From positions 41,426 to 105,425 of IMG/VR virus record IMGVR_UViG_3300045997_000112: DNA of 64,000 bases; one strand, 5' to 3'. The stretch comes from a virus. The notes beneath the pieces are model-generated. The model did no database searches, was not told the origin of the DNA, and was given only the letters and a program-made list of their open reading frames with translations. Numbering within the stretch: position 1 is the first letter of the stretch; each line of letters opens with the position of its first letter. The translations under genes and the position numbers were made by a program. This document shows positions 13,268-26,445 of this stretch, piece after piece.

Positions 13268-14773
13268 TCATCTCCTCAGGGCGTGCGGGCTCTTGTTGGT
13301 CCAACCTTGGGAGCTCTTGTTGAGCAGCCACATGGCCGGATCCTGGAACACGGACCAGGACTTCCTCCAGGCCACCTCGTTCCGGACCTCGAAGTGCAGA
13401 TGAGCTGCAGCTCCGGAGGACATCCCGGACTTGCCCACGAACCCGATGTGGCGCCCCTTCGTCACCGACATCCCAACCTTGATGCCCGATGCCACCCCCT
13501 GCATGTGCCCATAGCAGGCGTACGGGCCCGCCTTGGTCTTGAGCACGAGCTCGGTTCCCAGGGCCCCACCCTGGTGGATGGCCGCGATGGTCCCGTCATC
13601 GACGGCGTACAGGAGACCACCTGAGGAGTCGGCATTCTTGGGAGCCCAGATGTCGATCCCGGTGTGCGCCCCGAGGGCATAGTTGGTGGCGCCCCGGGTC
13701 TTGAACCCGAGGTAGACCAGCCAGTCCGACTTGGTCGGCATCGCCCAGTTCTGCCGGACTACGCCCGGGCCCTGGACCTGCCCCGCTCCGGTGCCCTGCG
13801 GGCCACTGTTGGGATCACCCGGAATGTTGCCCGCAACCGCGCTGTCTGATCCGGCGCCAACGGTGGTGTACCCGGCCAGGCCATACATGTCCGTGGTCCG
13901 GAGGAAGTTGATGGACAGGAAGGAGTAGACCGGGATCATGCCCGGCGCGTACTGCTGGTGCTGGACGCTCATGCTCGCCACGATGCCCCGGTACTTCCGG
14001 CAGCCCTCCGAGTCGCCCACGCTCATGATCACCGGGGTGGCCATGAGCATGCCCCAGTCGGACGTCTCCTCCCGCCAGGTGTTCACCGGGTCGAGGTTGA
14101 TCACCCGGAACAGGTACTCGATGTCGTACTGGGTGCCCCGCGCCAGGATCTCGGCCCGGTCCTCCTCCGTGGGCCGGTCCAACAATGGGTACTGCTGCTG
14201 CCAGTCGTCCCGGAGCAGGACGCGCATGTCCTCAGCTCGAGACAGCAGCAGCTTGACGGTGATCGTGGCCCCGGTGTTGCACGACATCAGCAGCAGGGGG
14301 TTGGCTGCGATGTCCCGGATGAAGTCGGCGTACGCGATGTCCATCGGAGCCGTGAACGACTCCTGGATCTCCGACGGGTTGTAGTGGAACTGGAAGCCCC
14401 ACCTACCTGAGGTGCTGGCCCATCCGGAGTCCGCCGCCTTGAGGCGCTCGTTCATGTTGAAGTCGCGGACGATCATCCCACGCTCGTTGAACCCGGCCTC
14501 CCGGTAGATGGGCTTGGCCCCGTTGCCGTAGGGGACCCGGCCCTTGTAGAGCGACTGGGAGTGCAGCTGCGTCGGGATGGCGGCGTTGAACTTGAGGTAC
14601 GCCCCGTCCTGCCTGCGAAGGTTGGTGTCCCCGGGGAGCGGGTACGCCTCACCCTCCACGGGCGCGGTGGGACTGGTGCCCGGCTGAGTGACCTCACCCG
14701 TCGGTGGATTGGCCCAATCGGGCGTGTTGATGGGATAGCTGGGCGCTGGTGTGTCCGGGAGGAAGTTGACCAT
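13268..14773 (-). CDS. Baseplate protein with C-terminal M23 peptidase domain, 501 aa
   Basis: Residues about 125-310 form a domain (GFQFHYNPSEIQ, later TQYDIEYLFRVINLDPVNTW, YAPGMIPVYSFLSI) that is also present in the neighbouring 633-aa protein. Residues 355-490 are a LytM/M23 zinc endopeptidase: H370-TGI-D374 and H458-L-H460 are the zinc ligands, with YGH in between. M23 enzymes cut peptide cross-bridges in peptidoglycan, here presumably for local wall digestion during infection. The linker (about 315-350) is Gly/Pro-rich. It starts 2 bases after the stop of its paralogue. Confidence 0.85.
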   Translation of the reverse strand: MVNFLPDTPAPSYPINTPDWANPPTGEVTQPGTSPTAPVEGEAYPLPGDTNLRRQDGAYLKFNAAIPTQLHSQSLYKGRVPYGNGAKPIYREAGFNERGMIVRDFNMNERLKAADSGWASTSGRWGFQFHYNPSEIQESFTAPMDIAYADFIRDIAANPLLLMSCNTGATITVKLLLSRAEDMRVLLRDDWQQQYPLLDRPTEEDRAEILARGTQYDIEYLFRVINLDPVNTWREETSDWGMLMATPVIMSVGDSEGCRKYRGIVASMSVQHQQYAPGMIPVYSFLSINFLRTTDMYGLAGYTTVGAGSDSAVAGNIPGDPNSGPQGTGAGQVQGPGVVRQNWAMPTKSDWLVYLGFKTRGATNYALGAHTGIDIWAPKNADSSGGLLYAVDDGTIAAIHQGGALGTELVLKTKAGPYACYGHMQGVASGIKVGMSVTKGRHIGFVGKSGMSSGAAAHLHFEVRNEVAWRKSWSVFQDPAMWLLNKSSQGWTNKSPHALRR

Positions 14774-14774
14774 G

Positions 14775-16676
14775 TCAGTACCAGTGCGGCTTCCGTGAGA
14801 GCCAGGTCGAGTAGGCGCGGGACGGGCGCCCGTACGGGGTGCCCTTGTTGGACTCGCGGGACTTCACCCGGATGTACTCCAGGCCCCAGGCGATCTGCTT
14901 GGCCGGGGTCTTCCTCCACGCGTCATTGTTGGTCTCCGGGTGCCACCGGGGAATGGCCTGCGGGATCCCGGTGGCGTTGGAGGACGGGTTCTTGGCCAGG
15001 TGGTTCCAGCTCGACTCCCCGTCCCAGAGCTTGATCAGGGCCGTCCAGTCGGCGTCGTTCCACCCGTACTTCGACCGGTAGGTGTCGAAGATGGGCTTGG
15101 CGATCGCAATGTTCTGGTCCCGACGGGATCCCGGCTTGCTGGATCCGTACCCGGGGACGTTGTCCGGCGTGGGCGCGGGGATGTGCACGCCTCCTGCGGG
15201 GCCCTCGACACCCGGCACCGTGACGCTGCCCGAGGACCCGGCGGCCGAGTCGTCCTTGCTCTCGCCCTCCGTGCTCTCGTTGGTGTACCAGGAGTCCGAG
15301 TGCCGGGAGATGCCCAAGGACACCTGGGTGCGGATCGGGATCATCCCGGGCGCGAACATCGTGTGGTGGAACGACGCCTGCATGATCGAGCCACGGATGC
15401 GCCGAACCTTGGGGCCGTCACCGATGGACACCAGCACCGGGTAGGGCACGAGCACCCCGAAGTCGGACGTCTTCCGGCCGTGCCACATGGTCGCTCCGGG
15501 CGGCTGGCCGTTGACGCAACGGAACAGGTACTCGAGGTCCCACATGGTGCCGTACTTGAGCAGGCCCTCGTAGTCGTCCTCGTTCCACCCCTGGATCCCG
15601 ATCGCCTCGTAGAACTTTTGAGTCCGTGCCCGGTCATTGATCCCGTAGAGGGAGAACATCTTGTGGTCCATCTGCCGGTCCAGCAGAAGGTTGAGCGTCA
15701 TGGAGGACCCGGTGTTCTGCACCACAGGTGGCGCGTCAGCTGCTGCCACGTCCGCGAGGTACTGGCCCGTGTCCACCCCGGACGGGGTGGCGTAGTTCTC
15801 CGAGTTGGTGCCCGGGTTGAACAGGAACCGGAACCCATACAAGGGCCCGGCGCTCGGTCGGTAGTTGTCGACGTGGATCACCTCGGTGCGGATGGTGCTC
15901 GGCGCGAACTCCTCCACCTCTCCGGTCTCCGGATCGATCGGGCCCTCGTAGTGGTCGTGCTCGGGGAGCCCCGCCACGCTCTCGAGCGCGGCCGGGTCAC
16001 GGGTGATCCACCCCTTGCCGAACGCCTCAGGACCGTGGATTCCGCTCCACCAATCTTGGGAGCCCTGACCCTCCTTGAGCTGGGCGTTGTACATCCGGGC
16101 CTGCCGGAGGTTGTCCCACAGCGGTGGGTTGAACACGGTCTGGCGCCGGAGGTGCTGGATGTCGATCAGGTCCCGAACCGCGTCGAAGTTCCCGGCCGCC
16201 TCGCTGGATCCCGCAGAGCCAGAGCCAGAGGACGACCCCGTGGACCCGGAGGCCGACCCGTCCTCCTCCGGAGGCGGCGGCAGGACCATGCCCTCCCGCC
16301 ACTTGATCGCACCGGCCGGGTTCACCGATCGACCGTTGATCTGGACCTCGAAATGCAGGTGGTTGCCCGTGGAGTTGCCCAGCGTGCCGACCTCACCCAG
16401 CTTCTGCCCGGCCTGCACCCGCTGCCCGGCGGAGACGGTCTTGGACCTCATGTGGGCGTAGATGTCCTTCTGACCGCCGCCAACATTGACGATCACCATG
16501 TTGGGTCCGGCCCACCCCTGGGGCTTGATCTCCACGATGCCCGGGCGCGCGGCCACCACGTTGCGACCTGCGGGCGCCGCGAAGTCGCACCCCGTGTGGT
16601 ACCCGGACGACCATGACGAGCCCTTCTGCCCGTACGGCGTGGTGATCCTCGTCTGGGAGGGGACCGGGGCAACCAT
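14775..16676 (-). CDS. Baseplate protein with N-terminal M23 and C-terminal transglycosylase-like domain, 633 aa
   Basis: Residues 1-125 are an M23 peptidase with all ligands visible: H27-TGC-D31, H75 in IYAHM and H106-L-H108. A Ser/Gly linker (140-160) leads to the structural domain shared with the next gene (YGFRFLFNPGTN, YGTMWDLEYLFRCVNG, FAPGMIPIRTQVSL). After a second linker, residues 530-630 resemble an SLT-type transglycosylase: WTALIKLWDGESSWNHLAKN then TGIPQAIP, with E554 the likely catalytic acid. It could therefore cut both peptide and glycan bonds during penetration. ATGA overlap with the tape measure gene. Confidence 0.85.
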   Translation of the reverse strand: MVAPVPSQTRITTPYGQKGSSWSSGYHTGCDFAAPAGRNVVAARPGIVEIKPQGWAGPNMVIVNVGGGQKDIYAHMRSKTVSAGQRVQAGQKLGEVGTLGNSTGNHLHFEVQINGRSVNPAGAIKWREGMVLPPPPEEDGSASGSTGSSSGSGSAGSSEAAGNFDAVRDLIDIQHLRRQTVFNPPLWDNLRQARMYNAQLKEGQGSQDWWSGIHGPEAFGKGWITRDPAALESVAGLPEHDHYEGPIDPETGEVEEFAPSTIRTEVIHVDNYRPSAGPLYGFRFLFNPGTNSENYATPSGVDTGQYLADVAAADAPPVVQNTGSSMTLNLLLDRQMDHKMFSLYGINDRARTQKFYEAIGIQGWNEDDYEGLLKYGTMWDLEYLFRCVNGQPPGATMWHGRKTSDFGVLVPYPVLVSIGDGPKVRRIRGSIMQASFHHTMFAPGMIPIRTQVSLGISRHSDSWYTNESTEGESKDDSAAGSSGSVTVPGVEGPAGGVHIPAPTPDNVPGYGSSKPGSRRDQNIAIAKPIFDTYRSKYGWNDADWTALIKLWDGESSWNHLAKNPSSNATGIPQAIPRWHPETNNDAWRKTPAKQIAWGLEYIRVKSRESNKGTPYGRPSRAYSTWLSRKPHWY

Positions 16677-18574
16677 CAGACGCTCGCAAGCGCGTTGAGG
16701 GACTGGGAGGTCTCCACAGCCTCCTTGACCGTCTGCACGAGCCGCTGGGCCTCACCCCAGGAGGCGTTCTTGAGCTCGACGTACACGTTGACCTGACCGG
16801 ACCGCTGCTGCTGGTCTCCACCGCCCATGTGCTTCTGGACAGAAGAGCGGAAGCTCTCGGCGACATCAGCGGGCAGGATCGTCTCGCCCTCGTGGATCTT
16901 GGCCAGATGAGCACGGGAGACGTTCCACACGCCCTCGGCATGGCGCTGGGTGCCCATGCCCGTGCCGTCGGAGGCCGCCGAGTAGTCCGCCCCGCCGTTG
17001 AACAGAGATCCGGCCGCGTAGCCCGCGCTGTGGCTGACGAACCCACCCGCCGCGCCACCGAGGGCACCCAGGGCCATGCCTGCGGGCCCGCCGGGGATCC
17101 CCAGGAGCATGCCGCCGAGCGCCCCGCCGAGGGTGGAGCCCAACGCCCCGCCCCAAAAGCCCTCCCCATTCTTGGCGTCCATGAAGCCGAACCCGCCGCT
17201 GACCAGGGCGCCCAGGCCGGGGATGGCCCGGGATCCCAGCTTCCCAGCTGTCTTCCCCGCTGCCTTTAGGCCAGCTCGACCGCCAACTTTGGCACCAATC
17301 TTGGACACGAGGCTGCCTGCCGCCTTGCCCGCCCGGCCGCCGCCCTTCCCCTTCATCATGGAGCGAAGCATCATCACGTCGGCCACGTCCCCGGCAGCGT
17401 CCAGCAGGTTGCCTCCTGCACCGCTGAGCGCGTTGCCCATGAAGGAGTTGTTCCACCCCACGCCCGCGCCATTCAGCTGCTGCAGCAGGGCCGTGGCCGG
17501 ACCCAGCGCCTGGTAGAACGCGGTCAGCCCCTCGGTGGCTGTCTCGAGCGCCCCGTTCATGATGCCGAAGCCCGCCACAGCGTCCTTGGTGCCCGCCTCG
17601 ACGTACTTGTCCTCCGCAGTCACCCGGGACAGAATCCCGGCCAGCGGGTTGACGTTCCGGTCGGTGGCCTCCTTCCCCGGGGTGGCCATCGAGTAGCCCG
17701 TGCCCTGGGAGCGGCGGTTGAGCATGTAGGTCTTGGCCATCTCCAGGTCCTCGCCCTGGAAGACCTGCGAGAGGGAGTAGTGGCCCGCGCCACCCACCTG
17801 CAGGGAGCGGCGCATCTGCTCCGGCGTCATGTTCTCGAAGCCGAGGCGCCGGTACCAGCTGGCGTATGCCTGCTCCCCAACGATGCGGTTGCCCTGAGCG
17901 TCGGTGGTCCGCACGCCTGCCATCAATGAGGCGTTCTGGTACTGCGCGCTGCTCACCGAGTTCAGGTGGGCCTGAGCGGCGGCGCTGTTGTCGTACCCGA
18001 GGGTCAGCGCAGCCCATCCGCCGAAGTTGCCCAGGTTCTGAGCCTGGGAGCTGCCGAGGAACGCTCCGGAGGCGACGGCCGCTGTCCGCTGGATCTCATT
18101 GATCCCGCTGACCCGGTTGCCGATGCCCGCCTGCACTCCGGACTCGTACCCGAGGCCCGCCTGGTAGCCCCCGGCCATGACCCCGGTGTGGTACCTGATC
18201 TGCTGCCGGTTGATCCCGGACACCGCGTTGGGCAGGAGACCGACCCCGGCCGCCACCGCGTTGGCGCTCGCCGACATGATCCCGGCGGCCATGGATGCCC
18301 GATACGCGCCCGGCGACATCCCGGCGGCAGCCGGTCCCACCGGGGGTGGCATCGCGGGGCCCCCACCATTGGGGCCGCCCATGATCATCTGGGGAGTGGC
18401 GAACCCGCCGCGCCCGCCCGCGCTCTGCCCGAGCATCCGCTGGACTTCGCGCGCGTCCTTCTTGGCCTGCGCGAGGTTGTCCTTGACCTTCTCGGAGTTG
18501 TTCACCAACCCCGTGGTGCTGTTGATGGGCTGCATGGCGGAACTGGCCCGAGCGGCTGGGAGGTTGTCAGCCAT
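16676..18574 (-). CDS. Tape measure protein, 632 aa
   Basis: The protein is long, alanine- and glycine-rich and helical. It has several hydrophobic glycine-zipper segments (about 455-525, GALVSGGFGFMDAKNG to GALGGAAGGFVSHSAGYAAG). Near the C-terminus is the typical tape-measure end motif AEGVWNVSRAHLAKIHEGET followed by ILPADVAESF. It is placed directly after the tail-assembly chaperone-like gene with its frameshift region. It sets tail length and probably enters the cell envelope during DNA ejection. At this size a tail of roughly 90-100 nm would be expected by the usual scaling. This is an estimate. Confidence 0.85.
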   Translation of the reverse strand: MADNLPAARASSAMQPINSTTGLVNNSEKVKDNLAQAKKDAREVQRMLGQSAGGRGGFATPQMIMGGPNGGGPAMPPPVGPAAAGMSPGAYRASMAAGIMSASANAVAAGVGLLPNAVSGINRQQIRYHTGVMAGGYQAGLGYESGVQAGIGNRVSGINEIQRTAAVASGAFLGSSQAQNLGNFGGWAALTLGYDNSAAAQAHLNSVSSAQYQNASLMAGVRTTDAQGNRIVGEQAYASWYRRLGFENMTPEQMRRSLQVGGAGHYSLSQVFQGEDLEMAKTYMLNRRSQGTGYSMATPGKEATDRNVNPLAGILSRVTAEDKYVEAGTKDAVAGFGIMNGALETATEGLTAFYQALGPATALLQQLNGAGVGWNNSFMGNALSGAGGNLLDAAGDVADVMMLRSMMKGKGGGRAGKAAGSLVSKIGAKVGGRAGLKAAGKTAGKLGSRAIPGLGALVSGGFGFMDAKNGEGFWGGALGSTLGGALGGMLLGIPGGPAGMALGALGGAAGGFVSHSAGYAAGSLFNGGADYSAASDGTGMGTQRHAEGVWNVSRAHLAKIHEGETILPADVAESFRSSVQKHMGGGDQQQRSGQVNVYVELKNASWGEAQRLVQTVKEAVETSQSLNALASV

Positions 18575-18743
18575 TCCGCCACTCCCTCTCTGCTATCCGG
18601 TAGGCAGCCCATGCCACCCACTCCCTGCGCTCCCTGATGGTCAGGGCCTTGCACTCACTCGGTGTCCAGCGGTAGATCTTGGTGATCGCCTCGATCTCCT
18701 CGAACAGCGACCCGTACTCAGAGTGGAAACAGATCTCCGACCG
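18567..18743 (-). CDS. Frameshift extension of the tail assembly chaperone-like gene
   Basis: A frame that opens at 18743, after a TGA in that frame at 18746-18744, runs to a TGA overlapping the tape measure start. It has no usable ATG, GTG or TTG start near its beginning. The peptide, CFHSEYGSLFEEIEAITKIY then RWTPSECKALTIRERREWVA, looks like real protein. It could be reached from the 18718-19485 gene by a +1 (or -2) shift before that gene's stop. The last sense codon and stop, CTC TGA G, resemble the prfB +1 site (CTT TGA C). GT-type chaperones before tape measures commonly use frameshifting, so this is a likely extension. Confidence 0.6.
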   Translation of the reverse strand, partial: RSEICFHSEYGSLFEEIEAITKIYRWTPSECKALTIRERREWVAWAAYRIAEREWRNG

Positions 18744-19485
18744 TCAGGACGGCGGAGACCTCCTTCCCGCAGGACGGACAGTTCGCCGTCGTGAGGTCGA
18801 ACCGGGGTCCCACCACGTTCTTCTGGATTGCCTCCACCAGCTCCTTCCGGTCCCGCACCGACAGGGTCCGAGCGGCATCCCCCAACAGTGGGATCCCATC
18901 CAGCTCATCGACGCACCGGTTGATCAGCACCGTCCGGAACTCCGCCTGGTTGTCCATGTCCGCGTGCGCCAGGGCCTCCTGCACATCTCCCTTGGGCCAG
19001 TGGCACGAGGCCAACTTCCCCGACTTGAGCCGGATGTCGAAGTACCCCTCCCTCGGTGACCCCAGGACGACGGACAGATCGTTGAGGTCGTAGTCGATCT
19101 CGTTGTTCTCCGAGCAGAAGGGACAGGCCAGGTCGATGACGACATTGGCGCCCCAGGTGCACCGACTGATCCCCACGAGGATGGCCAGACGATCGCCGAG
19201 GAACAGCTCCCGGAGCAGCGCCGGAGATGAAGGCTCATCCCCGATCCGAACAGTGGCGCGCTCCAAGATTGTGAGCAGCGCGGCCCCGATGGTCTTGGAC
19301 CGCGCCACCGCCTCCTCGTCGAATCCGTTCAGTTCCCTCACCTGCACTCGAGTGACAACCCCGGCCGGTGTCTGAAGCCCCACGGGGAGCTCGAGCCAGT
19401 CCGGCTCGGGCGCCATCGGGATGGGGGTCTCAGGCTTGGTTGCCGCTTCGATCGCCTGCAGGTCCTCTTCAATGCCAGTGGACAA
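18718..19485 (-). CDS. Tail assembly chaperone / T4 baseplate-protein-like, 255 aa, zinc-binding
   Basis: The TTG start at 19485 is supported by AGGAG six bases upstream. After an acidic, disordered N-terminus the protein reads LPVGLQTPAGVVTRVQVREL then NGFDEEAVARSK, which resembles T4-type baseplate assembly proteins (gp26/gp51 group, Pfam T4_baseplate). Two Cys pairs (CPFC near 140 and CPSC near 235) suggest a zinc site. It is the gene immediately before the tape measure, so it may act as the tail assembly chaperone. Its reading frame appears to be extended by a programmed frameshift (see 18567-18743). Confidence 0.7.
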   Translation of the reverse strand: MSTGIEEDLQAIEAATKPETPIPMAPEPDWLELPVGLQTPAGVVTRVQVRELNGFDEEAVARSKTIGAALLTILERATVRIGDEPSSPALLRELFLGDRLAILVGISRCTWGANVVIDLACPFCSENNEIDYDLNDLSVVLGSPREGYFDIRLKSGKLASCHWPKGDVQEALAHADMDNQAEFRTVLINRCVDELDGIPLLGDAARTLSVRDRKELVEAIQKNVVGPRFDLTTANCPSCGKEVSAVLTVGDLFPL

Positions 19486-19504: not shown

Positions 19505-20143
19505 TTAGACATCCCCACGCGGAATGGCATTCCATGTCGGGTCTGTTGAGCTGATGGGCTTTGCCCATTCAACACTAAGCCCCTCGTGGACCAGCGTGAT
19601 CTGCTCGACCAGCACGGCGTTGTCGGCCGCGTTGAGGTCGGAGTAGGAGATGTTCGTGATCCAGGAGTTCATGAGGTAGAACTTCTGGACCACCGGATCG
19701 TTGCCCCGGCCATCGTTGTAGCCCCGGTCATTGATCAGCGGCTGTGGGTGCCCGAGCACCGAGATGCTCACCGTGCACCGGAAGTTGCCGGTCAGCACCC
19801 CGGAGTCGGCCTTCTTGCCGTAGCCGACGTCGAAGAGCTGCTGGAACCACTTCCAGTTCTGGGCGCTGCCAAGGTTGACGCCGCGCTGGAGGCTGACCGG
19901 GGAGAAGGTCTGCTGACCCGGGAGGTAGTGGACCGTGGTGTTGAACCCACCCTCGCGGTACGGGATCGCCTCCGTGGTCATGGCCAGACCGGAGACCGCC
20001 ATGAAGCCCAGCGTGGCGCTGAACTTCACCGCGTCCTTCAGGGCGTCGTCCGGCGGGGTGAACTTCACGATGAACCGGAAGTTCCGGATGGGGTCAGACG
20101 CCGCGTGCGACCTCTGGTTCAAGTAGAGCTGCTGAGTGGCCAT
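19505..20143 (-). CDS. Tail tube protein (T4 gp19-like), 212 aa
   Basis: DPIRNFRFIVKFTPPDDALK at the start, then SGLAMTTEAIPYREGGFNTT and QTFSPVSLQRGVNLGSAQNW, is the standard signature of contractile tail tubes (FxVxF, SGLxxxxExxxYREGG, LKRG). The length is normal. It is coded directly after the sheath gene, with a good AGGAG site. Hexameric rings of this protein form the inner tube through which DNA passes. Confidence 0.92.
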   Translation of the reverse strand: MATQQLYLNQRSHAASDPIRNFRFIVKFTPPDDALKDAVKFSATLGFMAVSGLAMTTEAIPYREGGFNTTVHYLPGQQTFSPVSLQRGVNLGSAQNWKWFQQLFDVGYGKKADSGVLTGNFRCTVSISVLGHPQPLINDRGYNDGRGNDPVVQKFYLMNSWITNISYSDLNAADNAVLVEQITLVHEGLSVEWAKPISSTDPTWNAIPRGDV

Positions 20144-20153
20144 TCGCTATCTC

Positions 20154-21740
20154 CTAGTCGACTCGGACCGAGGTCTGGTTGTGGGTGAGCTTGATGACGA
20201 TGAACTCGGCCGGGTACTCGATGGCCACGCCCACCTCGATGTGCACCTCGCCTGCCGCGATGGTGTTCGAGTTGTTGTTGGTGCCGTCGCAGAGGACATA
20301 GAACGCCTCGTACTCCCGCGCGCCCCGGAGCGCACCCTGCTGGTAGTACAGGCCGAGGAAGTTCTCGAGCCGAATGTTGATGGTCTCCCACAGGTCCGGG
20401 CCATTGACCTCGAACACCGCGAACTCGGTGAGCGCCTGCAACCGCGAGCGGATGTAGGAGAACGACCGGCGCACGCCCACGTACCGATCGGCGTGGGTCT
20501 GGTCCAGCGTGCGGCCGCCCATGATGCACGGGCCGACGCCGGTGACCACCCGGATCGGGTTGACCGGGTGGATGAGCGTGTTCAGCTCGTCCAGCTGCGG
20601 GTTGGTGAACCGGTAGGCCGGGGTCACGATGCCCCGGATCCCCGCCGTGACCCCGGCCGGGGTCTTCCACATGCCGTAGCTGGCGTCGTTGGAGGCGAAC
20701 ACCCCGAGCACCGCACCGCCGCAGGGAGCCTGGCGGCGAATGTTGTTGGGGCCCGCTGCCGGGTCGTTGATGATGACCGGCGGGTAGTACGCGGCCGAGT
20801 AGGCGTTCTTGTCGTTCAGGTCGTTGACCCAGTCCGCCACGTTGCTGACGCTGGAGCCCAGGTCAGGGGTGTCGATGACGTGGAACGAGTCGCCCCGCTC
20901 CTTGCAGTACTGCGAGACCAGCGCCAGGTCGGCCTGGTTCCAGTGGCCGGAGTACGAGATGGCCAGCGCGCCCTCGTAGAAGTCCAGGGAGTGCAGCGTC
21001 TCGGCCAGGTCGGCCGGGTTCTGTCCGTCGCTGCCGCCCCGGAGGACGACCTCACGGTTGTCCGTGATCTCCAGCTTCCCGGCCCCAACCTTGAGGTCGA
21101 TGTACGACGAGGCGCCGGTGACGACGAACTCGGCGTAGCGCCGATCGGTCTGATCCAGGCTCAGCCCGGGGAAGCGCTCGACGACCTGGTCGACGCCGTA
21201 CTTGTCCTTCAGCGAGACGACGACCTCCAGCGTGCCCACGCCATACCCGGACGGGGTCTTGAAGTCGGCGTTGGTGAAGTCGGCCGGGTCGAACGGACCG
21301 GCGACGCCGTAGTTGCCCGACAGCGTGACCTTCAGCCGGTCTCCCCACAGTCCGGGGGCGATCGCCGTCGCGCTCACAACCACCTGACCAGTGGTGTCGA
21401 GGATCTCCCCACGGGAGAACTCGGCGTCCCGGTTGGCCACGCGGAGCACGGTCAGCGGGGAGCCCCCGGCCGAGCCGTTGGCGAAGAACAGGAACGCGGC
21501 GTCCACCGAGGCGTTCCGTCGATGCCCGAACGCAGTCCGGGGCTGGTTGTCGACCCAGTCCCCGAAGATGGTGCGGAACTCGTGCCACGACCCCACCGTG
21601 GTGGGGATGACGGGACCCCGGTCGAGGTCGGCCAGCAGCACGGCCCGGGAGGCGAGGTTGGAGGTGAACCCGGTGTCACGAGGAGCCTGAACCTCCGTGA
21701 TTGTGACCCCGGGACGCCCGTAGGTGTTGGTCATGTTCAT
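20154..21740 (-). CDS. Tail sheath protein, 528 aa
   Basis: The N-terminus YGRPGVTITEVQAPRDTGF then SNLASRAVLLADLDRGPVIP is the conserved sheath start (PGVYxxE). The C-terminal part contains YVGVRRSFSYIRSRLQALTE and the NNNSN-type handshake region followed by HIEVGVAIEYPAEFIVIKLT, as in T4 gp18-type sheaths. An insertion domain occupies about residues 85-330. The ATG overlaps the upstream stop (ATGA). The sheath contracts to drive the tube through the wall. Confidence 0.93.
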   Translation of the reverse strand: MNMTNTYGRPGVTITEVQAPRDTGFTSNLASRAVLLADLDRGPVIPTTVGSWHEFRTIFGDWVDNQPRTAFGHRRNASVDAAFLFFANGSAGGSPLTVLRVANRDAEFSRGEILDTTGQVVVSATAIAPGLWGDRLKVTLSGNYGVAGPFDPADFTNADFKTPSGYGVGTLEVVVSLKDKYGVDQVVERFPGLSLDQTDRRYAEFVVTGASSYIDLKVGAGKLEITDNREVVLRGGSDGQNPADLAETLHSLDFYEGALAISYSGHWNQADLALVSQYCKERGDSFHVIDTPDLGSSVSNVADWVNDLNDKNAYSAAYYPPVIINDPAAGPNNIRRQAPCGGAVLGVFASNDASYGMWKTPAGVTAGIRGIVTPAYRFTNPQLDELNTLIHPVNPIRVVTGVGPCIMGGRTLDQTHADRYVGVRRSFSYIRSRLQALTEFAVFEVNGPDLWETINIRLENFLGLYYQQGALRGAREYEAFYVLCDGTNNNSNTIAAGEVHIEVGVAIEYPAEFIVIKLTHNQTSVRVD

Positions 21741-25329: not shown

Positions 25330-25911
25330 TCATGTTCCTCTCGTCAGGAGAGCTTGATGAATGGCCCGATGCGTGACCCCGAACTCACGTCCGAGCGCCC
25401 GCAGGCTCATCCCACCTTCTCTCAGTTCTCGGAGCCGAGGTAGGTCCTCGTCCCGAATCTTGGTCGCATGGTGCTGGTTGCCCCTAGGGACGTTGCCGTC
25501 CTTCTCACGATCGTCCATGTTGTCCTGTGGAGTGCCCGCCCGAAGGTGGTCCGGGTTCACACATCGGCGGTTGTCCTTGCACGAGTGCAGGACCATCTTG
25601 CCCTCAGGTACCTCACCCTTGTGAAGCCGATAGGAGTAGACGTGCGCGCGTTTGGACTGTCCCGCGCCCGCCGCGAACTCACCGTACCCGGAGGGCGTCA
25701 GCCGCCCGGTCCAGTTCCAGCAGGTTTCCGTCTTGTCGACTCGAACCCAGAATCGCTCCTCCGTGGAGAGCTTGGCGTAAGGGCGCTGAGAGGGAGGGGC
25801 ACCCGCAGTCCCGTACCGACCCCGATGCTTGGGGCACATCCCCCGGTTCAGTCTCCATGAACCGGGGGAAGAGCAGTCACCGTCGTCTTCGTGGATACAT
25901 ACCCTAACCAT
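25330..25911 (-). CDS. Free-standing HNH endonuclease with C-terminal HTH, 193 aa
   Basis: Residues 1-35 contain cysteine/histidine pairs (CIHEDDGDC, MCPKHRGRYG). Residues 55-130 form the HNH fold: CWNWTGRLTPSGYGEF, then VLHSCKDNRRCVNPDHLRAG and a downstream N. The C-terminal 45 residues (LRELREGGMSLRALGREFGV then THRAIHQALL) are a resolvase-like helix-turn-helix. This is the layout of homing HNH endonucleases. It is inserted between a capsid-cluster gene and the Acb2-like gene and has its own AT-rich promoter region, typical of a mobile intron-less homing gene. Confidence 0.85.
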   Translation of the reverse strand: MVRVCIHEDDGDCSSPGSWRLNRGMCPKHRGRYGTAGAPPSQRPYAKLSTEERFWVRVDKTETCWNWTGRLTPSGYGEFAAGAGQSKRAHVYSYRLHKGEVPEGKMVLHSCKDNRRCVNPDHLRAGTPQDNMDDREKDGNVPRGNQHHATKIRDEDLPRLRELREGGMSLRALGREFGVTHRAIHQALLTRGT

Positions 25912-26314: not shown

Positions 26315-26372
26315 GCGTTTCTCCTCTATTGGGGGGACAAGAGGATGCTACATGGGTCCATAGAGCATTGGG

Positions 26373-26445
26373 CTCCCCCGCATGGACTCGAACCACGCAC
26401 CTCTCCCGTAACAGGGGAGCGCTCTGCCAGATGAGCTACAGGGGA
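26373..26445 (-). tRNA. tRNA-Asn (GTT)
   Basis: On the minus strand the cloverleaf is complete. The acceptor TCCCCTG pairs with CGGGGGA with one G-T wobble. The D arm contains GCTCATCTGGCAGAGC. The anticodon stem CTCCC/GGGAG holds the loop CTGTTAC with anticodon GTT. The T arm contains GGTTCGAGTCC. The discriminator is G, and CCA is not encoded. It lies between the capsid gene with its terminators and the 127-aa gene, so it is probably processed from the structural transcript. Confidence 0.95.

Follow-up and report, generated by a model that had tools for sequence, protein, structure and literature searches.

A candidate +1 frameshift at a conserved UUU_C site in a gp26/gp51-related tail assembly gene preceding the tape measure of contractile-tailed phages

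The tail assembly chaperones of the lambda type, G and GT, are reportedly produced with the aid of a programmed frameshift, as described by Xu, Hendrix and Duda. The G-to-GT frameshift is considered to be widely conserved in long-tailed phages with the exception of T4 (PMC5009743). In T4, gp26 and gp51 are known as hub assembly chaperones, gp51 being required for assembly and not present in the final particle (PMC3004832). Sullivan et al. (2010) found that gp51 of cyanophages and marine vibriophages lacks the first ~200 residues and matches the C-terminus of T4 gp51, and that Aeh1 lacks gp51, with no mention of a frameshift (PMC3037559); among the open-access papers on T4-like cyanophages that were listed, the term programmed frameshift is not used. 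Shifts in the +1 direction have been described in tail genes of the Listeria phages PSA, A118 and A500, and are likely in the haloarchaeal myovirus HSTV-2 (PMC5009743). Further +1 sites are UCC_UUU_CGU of influenza PA-X (PMC3498833) and UUU_CGN of amalgaviruses (PMC5052127), and in bacteria UUU_Ynn is an especially +1-prone tetranucleotide (PMC5009743).

Here we analyze a stretch of 64,000 nucleotides (the window) from a virus record of 105 kb, in which two overlapping frames, A and B, sit between a tail tube gene, assigned by Pfam, and a tape-measure-like ORF, assigned by position. As in the lambda-type systems, A lies before the tape measure, short and extended forms would be produced, and the second frame has no start codon. 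The differences concern the shift itself, usually at a -1 heptamer in lambda-type pairs and proposed here as +1 at UUU_C, and the protein, A being a zinc-ribbon T4_baseplate protein of 255 aa within a contractile-tail module. We consider it very probable that A and B encode a G/GT-type tail assembly chaperone pair, with the A-B product made by a +1 slip of tRNA-Phe at UUU_C. No published report of this frameshift was found in the open-access literature.

All features of the locus are on the minus strand. The tail tube gene (19505..20143; PF06841, Phage_T4_gp19, E 2.8e-24) is located directly upstream of gene A and is preceded by a gene at 20154..21740 encoding a probable tail sheath protein (PF04984, E 7.8e-6, under the curated cut-off), which points to a contractile tail. 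On the other side, the tape-measure candidate (16676..18574, 632 aa) is proposed from its position and Gly/Ala-rich sequence only, and has no Pfam match; its start at 18574 overlaps the end of frame B. In the relatives, the median distance from the stop of B to the start of a long tape-measure-like ORF is 0.5 nt, and the order tube, A/B, tape measure is shared by the window and its relatives. Elsewhere in the window, an HNH_3 endonuclease gene (25330-25911, minus strand) and a lone tRNA-Asn (GTT) gene (26371-26445, minus strand) are located between the head and tail genes. Additionally, the adjacent genes 13268-14773 and 14775-16676 (both minus strand) each carry a peptidase M23 domain, located in the C-terminal part of one and in the N-terminal part of the other.

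Gene A (18718..19485) starts with TTG at 19485, has AGGAG upstream and terminates with TGA at 18720-18718. Its 3' end reads ...GGA GAT CTG TTT CCA CTC TGA G, in agreement with the original prediction, made from the letters of the window, that the gene ends in CTC TGA G. The protein contains two CxxC pairs and matches PF12322 (T4_baseplate) with 24.7 bits, just over the curated cut-off of 24.5; the family is matched by 21 of 21 aligned relatives, with a best E of 8.9e-14. A sequence search returned no solved structure. When the AlphaFold2 model of A (pLDDT 91.4) was compared with solved structures, YqbN (Z 7.8) and the HK97 tail assembly chaperone (Z 7.5) stood apart from the next match (2.5), a Z under 8 being no proof of a common fold. 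The HK97 chaperone also takes the top rank in Foldseek, but without significance (E 0.92), and the best BFVD matches of the model are T4-like baseplate hub assembly proteins. Taken together, the model matches to YqbN and the HK97 chaperone and the gene order make a G/GT pair the most likely reading of A and A-B.

The relatives available for comparison include the Streptomyces phages BRock, LuckySocke, Alone3, pSt2308 and GiJojo, whose A proteins are 31-37% identical to that of the window. IMG/VR and GTDB contigs were scanned with single proteins and with alignments, yielding 277 usable loci with 140 distinct sequences, which were grouped by amino acid identity into 78 clusters at 70% and 38 at 50%; as the sequences are related and sampling is uneven, cluster counts given below are not fully independent events. 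A few loci come from bacterial assemblies (Saccharothrix, Actinomadura, Nonomuraea, Streptomyces and a Bacillota MAG). A blastn search of the 3.5-kb region against phage records gave no match, and single-protein scans from two distant members (L138 and L115) returned themselves only.

Frame B (18567..18743) is open in +1 from 18743, 23 nt before the stop of A, to its own stop at 18569-18567, that is 58 codons, 50 of them past the end of gene A and reaching up to the tape-measure start. It contains no ATG, GTG or TTG. The extent of this second frame and its lack of a start codon, both stated in the original prediction, are thus borne out. The part translated after the shift, domain B, would comprise 53 aa (F-HSEYGSLFEEIEAITKIYRWTPSECKALTIRERREWVAW...), giving an A-B fusion of 305 aa when TTTC is read as one step. 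Beyond the stop of A, the +1 frame is open in each of the 78 clusters, over 34-80 codons (median 51); the -1 frame attains 42 codons in just one of them. This openness is well beyond chance. The predicted products share the core YxEYExL...GWxLxxIxxLxxRERxxW, for which Pfam holds no family and PHROG gives weak matches. For the part lying wholly past the stop of A, pN/pS is 0.19 in B, compared to 1.16 and 2.08 in the other frames, over 151 within-cluster pairs that are not independent of each other; with 17 clusters also counted singly, pN is lower than pS for B in every one. These values indicate that B is under purifying selection.

With regard to initiation, 34 of 73 clusters, among them that of the window, lack ATG, GTG and TTG ahead of the GW core of B; the other 39 do have some start codon there, at positions that are not shared. 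In deposited records, B is annotated from whichever start codon happens to exist, which for LuckySocke and Alone3 is one within the conserved core (L003 4833-4988 and L004 4833-4988); for pSt2308 the extension is left out (L005 4769-5027). The present comparison corrects gene calls in such sequenced phages.

The element conserved near the end of A is a phenylalanine codon. In the window, an in-frame UUU followed by C is found at 18726..18729 (CUG UUU CCA), its TTT, the only one of gene A, being placed two sense codons before the stop. TTT followed by C is present in 119 of the 140 distinct sequences, corresponding to 73/78 clusters at 70% identity and 37/38 at 50%; the stop of A, which may be TAA, TAG or TGA, comes 1 to 8 sense codons past it. 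Among the 73 clusters the next codon is CGN (42), CTY (20), CCN (6) or CAR (5), a variation which suggests that only the C is demanded after TTT. Every GC-rich cluster (39 of 39) uses TTT at the site, whereas only 10 of the 203 other Phe codons (4.9%) of the same genes are TTT, one of them followed by C; in the head and tail genes of the window, TTT likewise accounts for 6 of 194 Phe codons. The retention of TTT at the site despite its rarity elsewhere points toward a constraint acting on a synonymous position. The preceding codon is mostly YUG, defining the conserved context YUG_UUU_C, and tRNA-Phe (anticodon GAA) can re-pair fully when moving from UUU to UUC.

We infer that slippage takes place at this site. 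Most ribosomes would terminate at the UGA of the window gene and release A, of 255 aa; in a minority, the P-site tRNA-Phe would move forward by one base, from UUU to UUC, and these ribosomes would go on in the +1 frame to make A-B, of 305 aa. On the model of lambda gpG/gpGT, A would coat the tape measure while tube or hub subunits would be recruited by the B domain, both A and A-B departing before the virion is completed.

In this regard, the proposed event resembles those of influenza PA-X, amalgaviruses and the bacterial UUU_Ynn sites, where P-site tRNA-Phe likewise passes from UUU to UUC and C follows; CGN, the commonest next codon here, is also the one found in the PA-X and amalgavirus UUU_CGN sites. 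Sites of the UUU_C type need no 3' structure (PMC3498833; PMC5052127; PMC5009743), and likewise none was detected downstream of the site in the relatives (mean z 0.42); Rfam gave no match. Upstream of the site, pairing with the anti-Shine-Dalgarno sequence is only slightly above that of control windows in the relatives. Since no clear stimulator was found, the efficiency of the shift may be low, and the missing 3' structure together with the slight Shine-Dalgarno tendency might be expected of a low-level shift. Unlike the influenza and amalgavirus cases, the window family concerns a structural gene of DNA phages translated by bacterial ribosomes, and its E-site codon is mostly YUG instead of the UCC of PA-X. 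The +1 direction is also common to the tsh genes of Listeria phages, whose sites are CCC_UGA, with a proline codon beside the stop, in contrast to the UUU_C found here. With its very well conserved minimal UUU_C sites, the family lends itself to the study of +1 slippage on bacterial ribosomes.

Frame B could also be read as a separate gene, translationally coupled to the end of A and initiated at a weak or non-standard start, such as the ATC behind GAGGAG in the window. In line with this notion, deposited genomes annotate B as a gene of its own, some relatives hold an ATG, GTG or TTG within B, and in the clusters with a start before the core separate initiation would be possible in given lineages. 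However, the absence of any standard start before the core in almost half of the clusters and the unshared position of those that exist, with no conserved start codon among the relatives, speak against it, as do the annotated starts of LuckySocke and Alone3, which fall within the core. Moreover, a separate gene leaves unexplained the invariant UUU_C, the choice of TTT for its codon and the openness of the +1 frame across the stop of A in every cluster. We therefore regard separate initiation of B as improbable.

A programmed +1 shift fusing the extension to a T4-baseplate-like zinc-ribbon protein ahead of the tape measure, as the original prediction had it, is supported by the relatives, none of which shows a stop codon in the extension frame. 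The site it had favored, a prfB-type CTC_TGA stimulated by an upstream GGAG, fares differently and appears very improbable. Both motifs do occur in the window, and a few relatives likewise end in CTC TGA; across the family, however, neither CTC nor TGA is conserved, and the distance from UUU_C to the stop varies; the conserved element is UUU_C. The re-pairing of tRNA-Leu from CUC to UCU would also be poor. The GGAG is indeed present at 18738-18735, 14 nt from TGA and 5 nt from TTT, but it is 11 nt from CTC as opposed to 3 nt in prfB, and it is not a feature of the family, in which Shine-Dalgarno strength is only slightly raised. The release factor 2 gene prfB shares with the UUU_C sites the +1 direction; unlike it, these sites neither place a stop codon in the A site nor have a Shine-Dalgarno sequence 3 nt upstream, and they involve no autoregulatory release-factor logic. 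Least probable of all, in our view, is that the frame is reached by transcriptional slippage or by a -2 shift, also raised in the original prediction. The former would need more than the three T of the site, which are too few for ordinary polymerase slippage. A -2 shift arrives in the same frame and is used by phage Mu (PMC5009743), but at the conserved YUG_UUU_C it is not supported, because two bases back the tRNA-Phe would sit on UGU. A single forward step of tRNA-Phe at UUU_C is thus the reading that we retain for the window family.

The 5 of 78 clusters without UUU_C form one freshwater clade (virus contigs L019-L059, e.g. L026 around 3640), in which B is still in the +1 frame. Here A ends in GCN TCC CTT YTA TTY RGT TAA. 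All 21 sequences retain the CTT, with T or C as the next base, though it makes up about one quarter of the Leu codons there, which makes CUU_U/C, similar to the CUU_U of prfB, the most plausible shift site of this clade, to which it has likely switched on losing UUU_C. The TCC is likewise kept in 21 of 21 sequences, and a shift at UCC_C is a possible alternative on these grounds.

The family relationship of A extends to T4, where both gp26 (208 aa) and gp51 (249 aa) match PF12322. The match of gp51 stops at residue 201, leaving an extension of ~48 aa that gp26 does not have. Compared directly by hhalign, B and the tail of gp51 are weakly similar (12%). The T4-like cyanophages provide the bridge between them: their B family aligns with the gp51 extension at a probability of 97.4% (E 1e-11) and with the B of the window family at 77.6% (E 2e-5). 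With the gp51 extension homologous to cyanophage B, and the latter probably to B, T4 seems to encode the two products, A (gp26) and A-B (gp51), on two genes and with no frameshift, whereas in the window family one gene would give both forms.

In these cyanophages, a single PF12322 gene was found at the locus, ending in NNT TTT TTC and followed, as in the window family, by a short overlapping frame, here carrying the gp51 tail. U_UUU_UUC is present in 45 of 45 distinct cyanophage sequences, and 44 of them have the short ORF, often annotated as baseplate hub assembly catalyst, in the -1 frame. The sole exception is Synechococcus phage S-SCSM1 (L306, about 1600-1804), where the ORF is in +1 and has its own ATG, U_UUU_UUC being kept. 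The same U_UUU_UUC layout is shared by Vibrio D484, Aeromonas Ah1 and Rhizobium IC12. A -1 frameshift, unannotated in these records (T4-like cyanophages L305-L308, L313, L315 and L316-L368, together with L304, L310 and L311), is probable where a PF12322 gene ends in U_UUU_UUC. Cyanophage B has no start before its NFAL motif in 14 of 44 sequences and an ATG-type start in the rest, so that the -1 shift is well supported only in part of them. The cyanophage and vibriophage pairs, annotated as separate genes, thus differ from the window family in frame (-1 versus +1) and in site (U_UUU_UUC versus UUU_C).

These findings lead us to propose, as a likely though less firm reading than the slip at UUU_C itself, that the gp26/gp51 family corresponds, in contractile tails, to lambda G/GT. 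Its A and A-B products would be made in at least four ways: by +1 at UUU_C in the window family, by +1 probably at CUU_Y in the freshwater clade, by -1 at U_UUU_UUC in T4-like cyanophages, Vibrio D484, Aeromonas Ah1 and Rhizobium IC12, and by gene duplication in T4. The direction of the shift would then have changed at one homologous position, and T4 would be no true exception. In this way the window family ties gp26 and gp51 to the G-to-GT rule and offers a reason for the apparent exception, namely that a duplication replaced the frameshift. The truncated gp51 proteins of cyanophages and vibriophages (Sullivan et al., 2010) would be explained as frameshift extensions, and the gp51 missing in Aeh1 would be explained too, given that another Aeromonas phage, Ah1, has an unannotated -1 extension. 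A short overlapping -1 frame after the PF12322 gene also occurs in Klebsiella 0507-KN2-1 (L312), with ATT TTC ATT in place of U_UUU_UUC and nothing annotated there, and in Vibrio K474 (L309), where the corresponding sequence is CTT TTT GCG.
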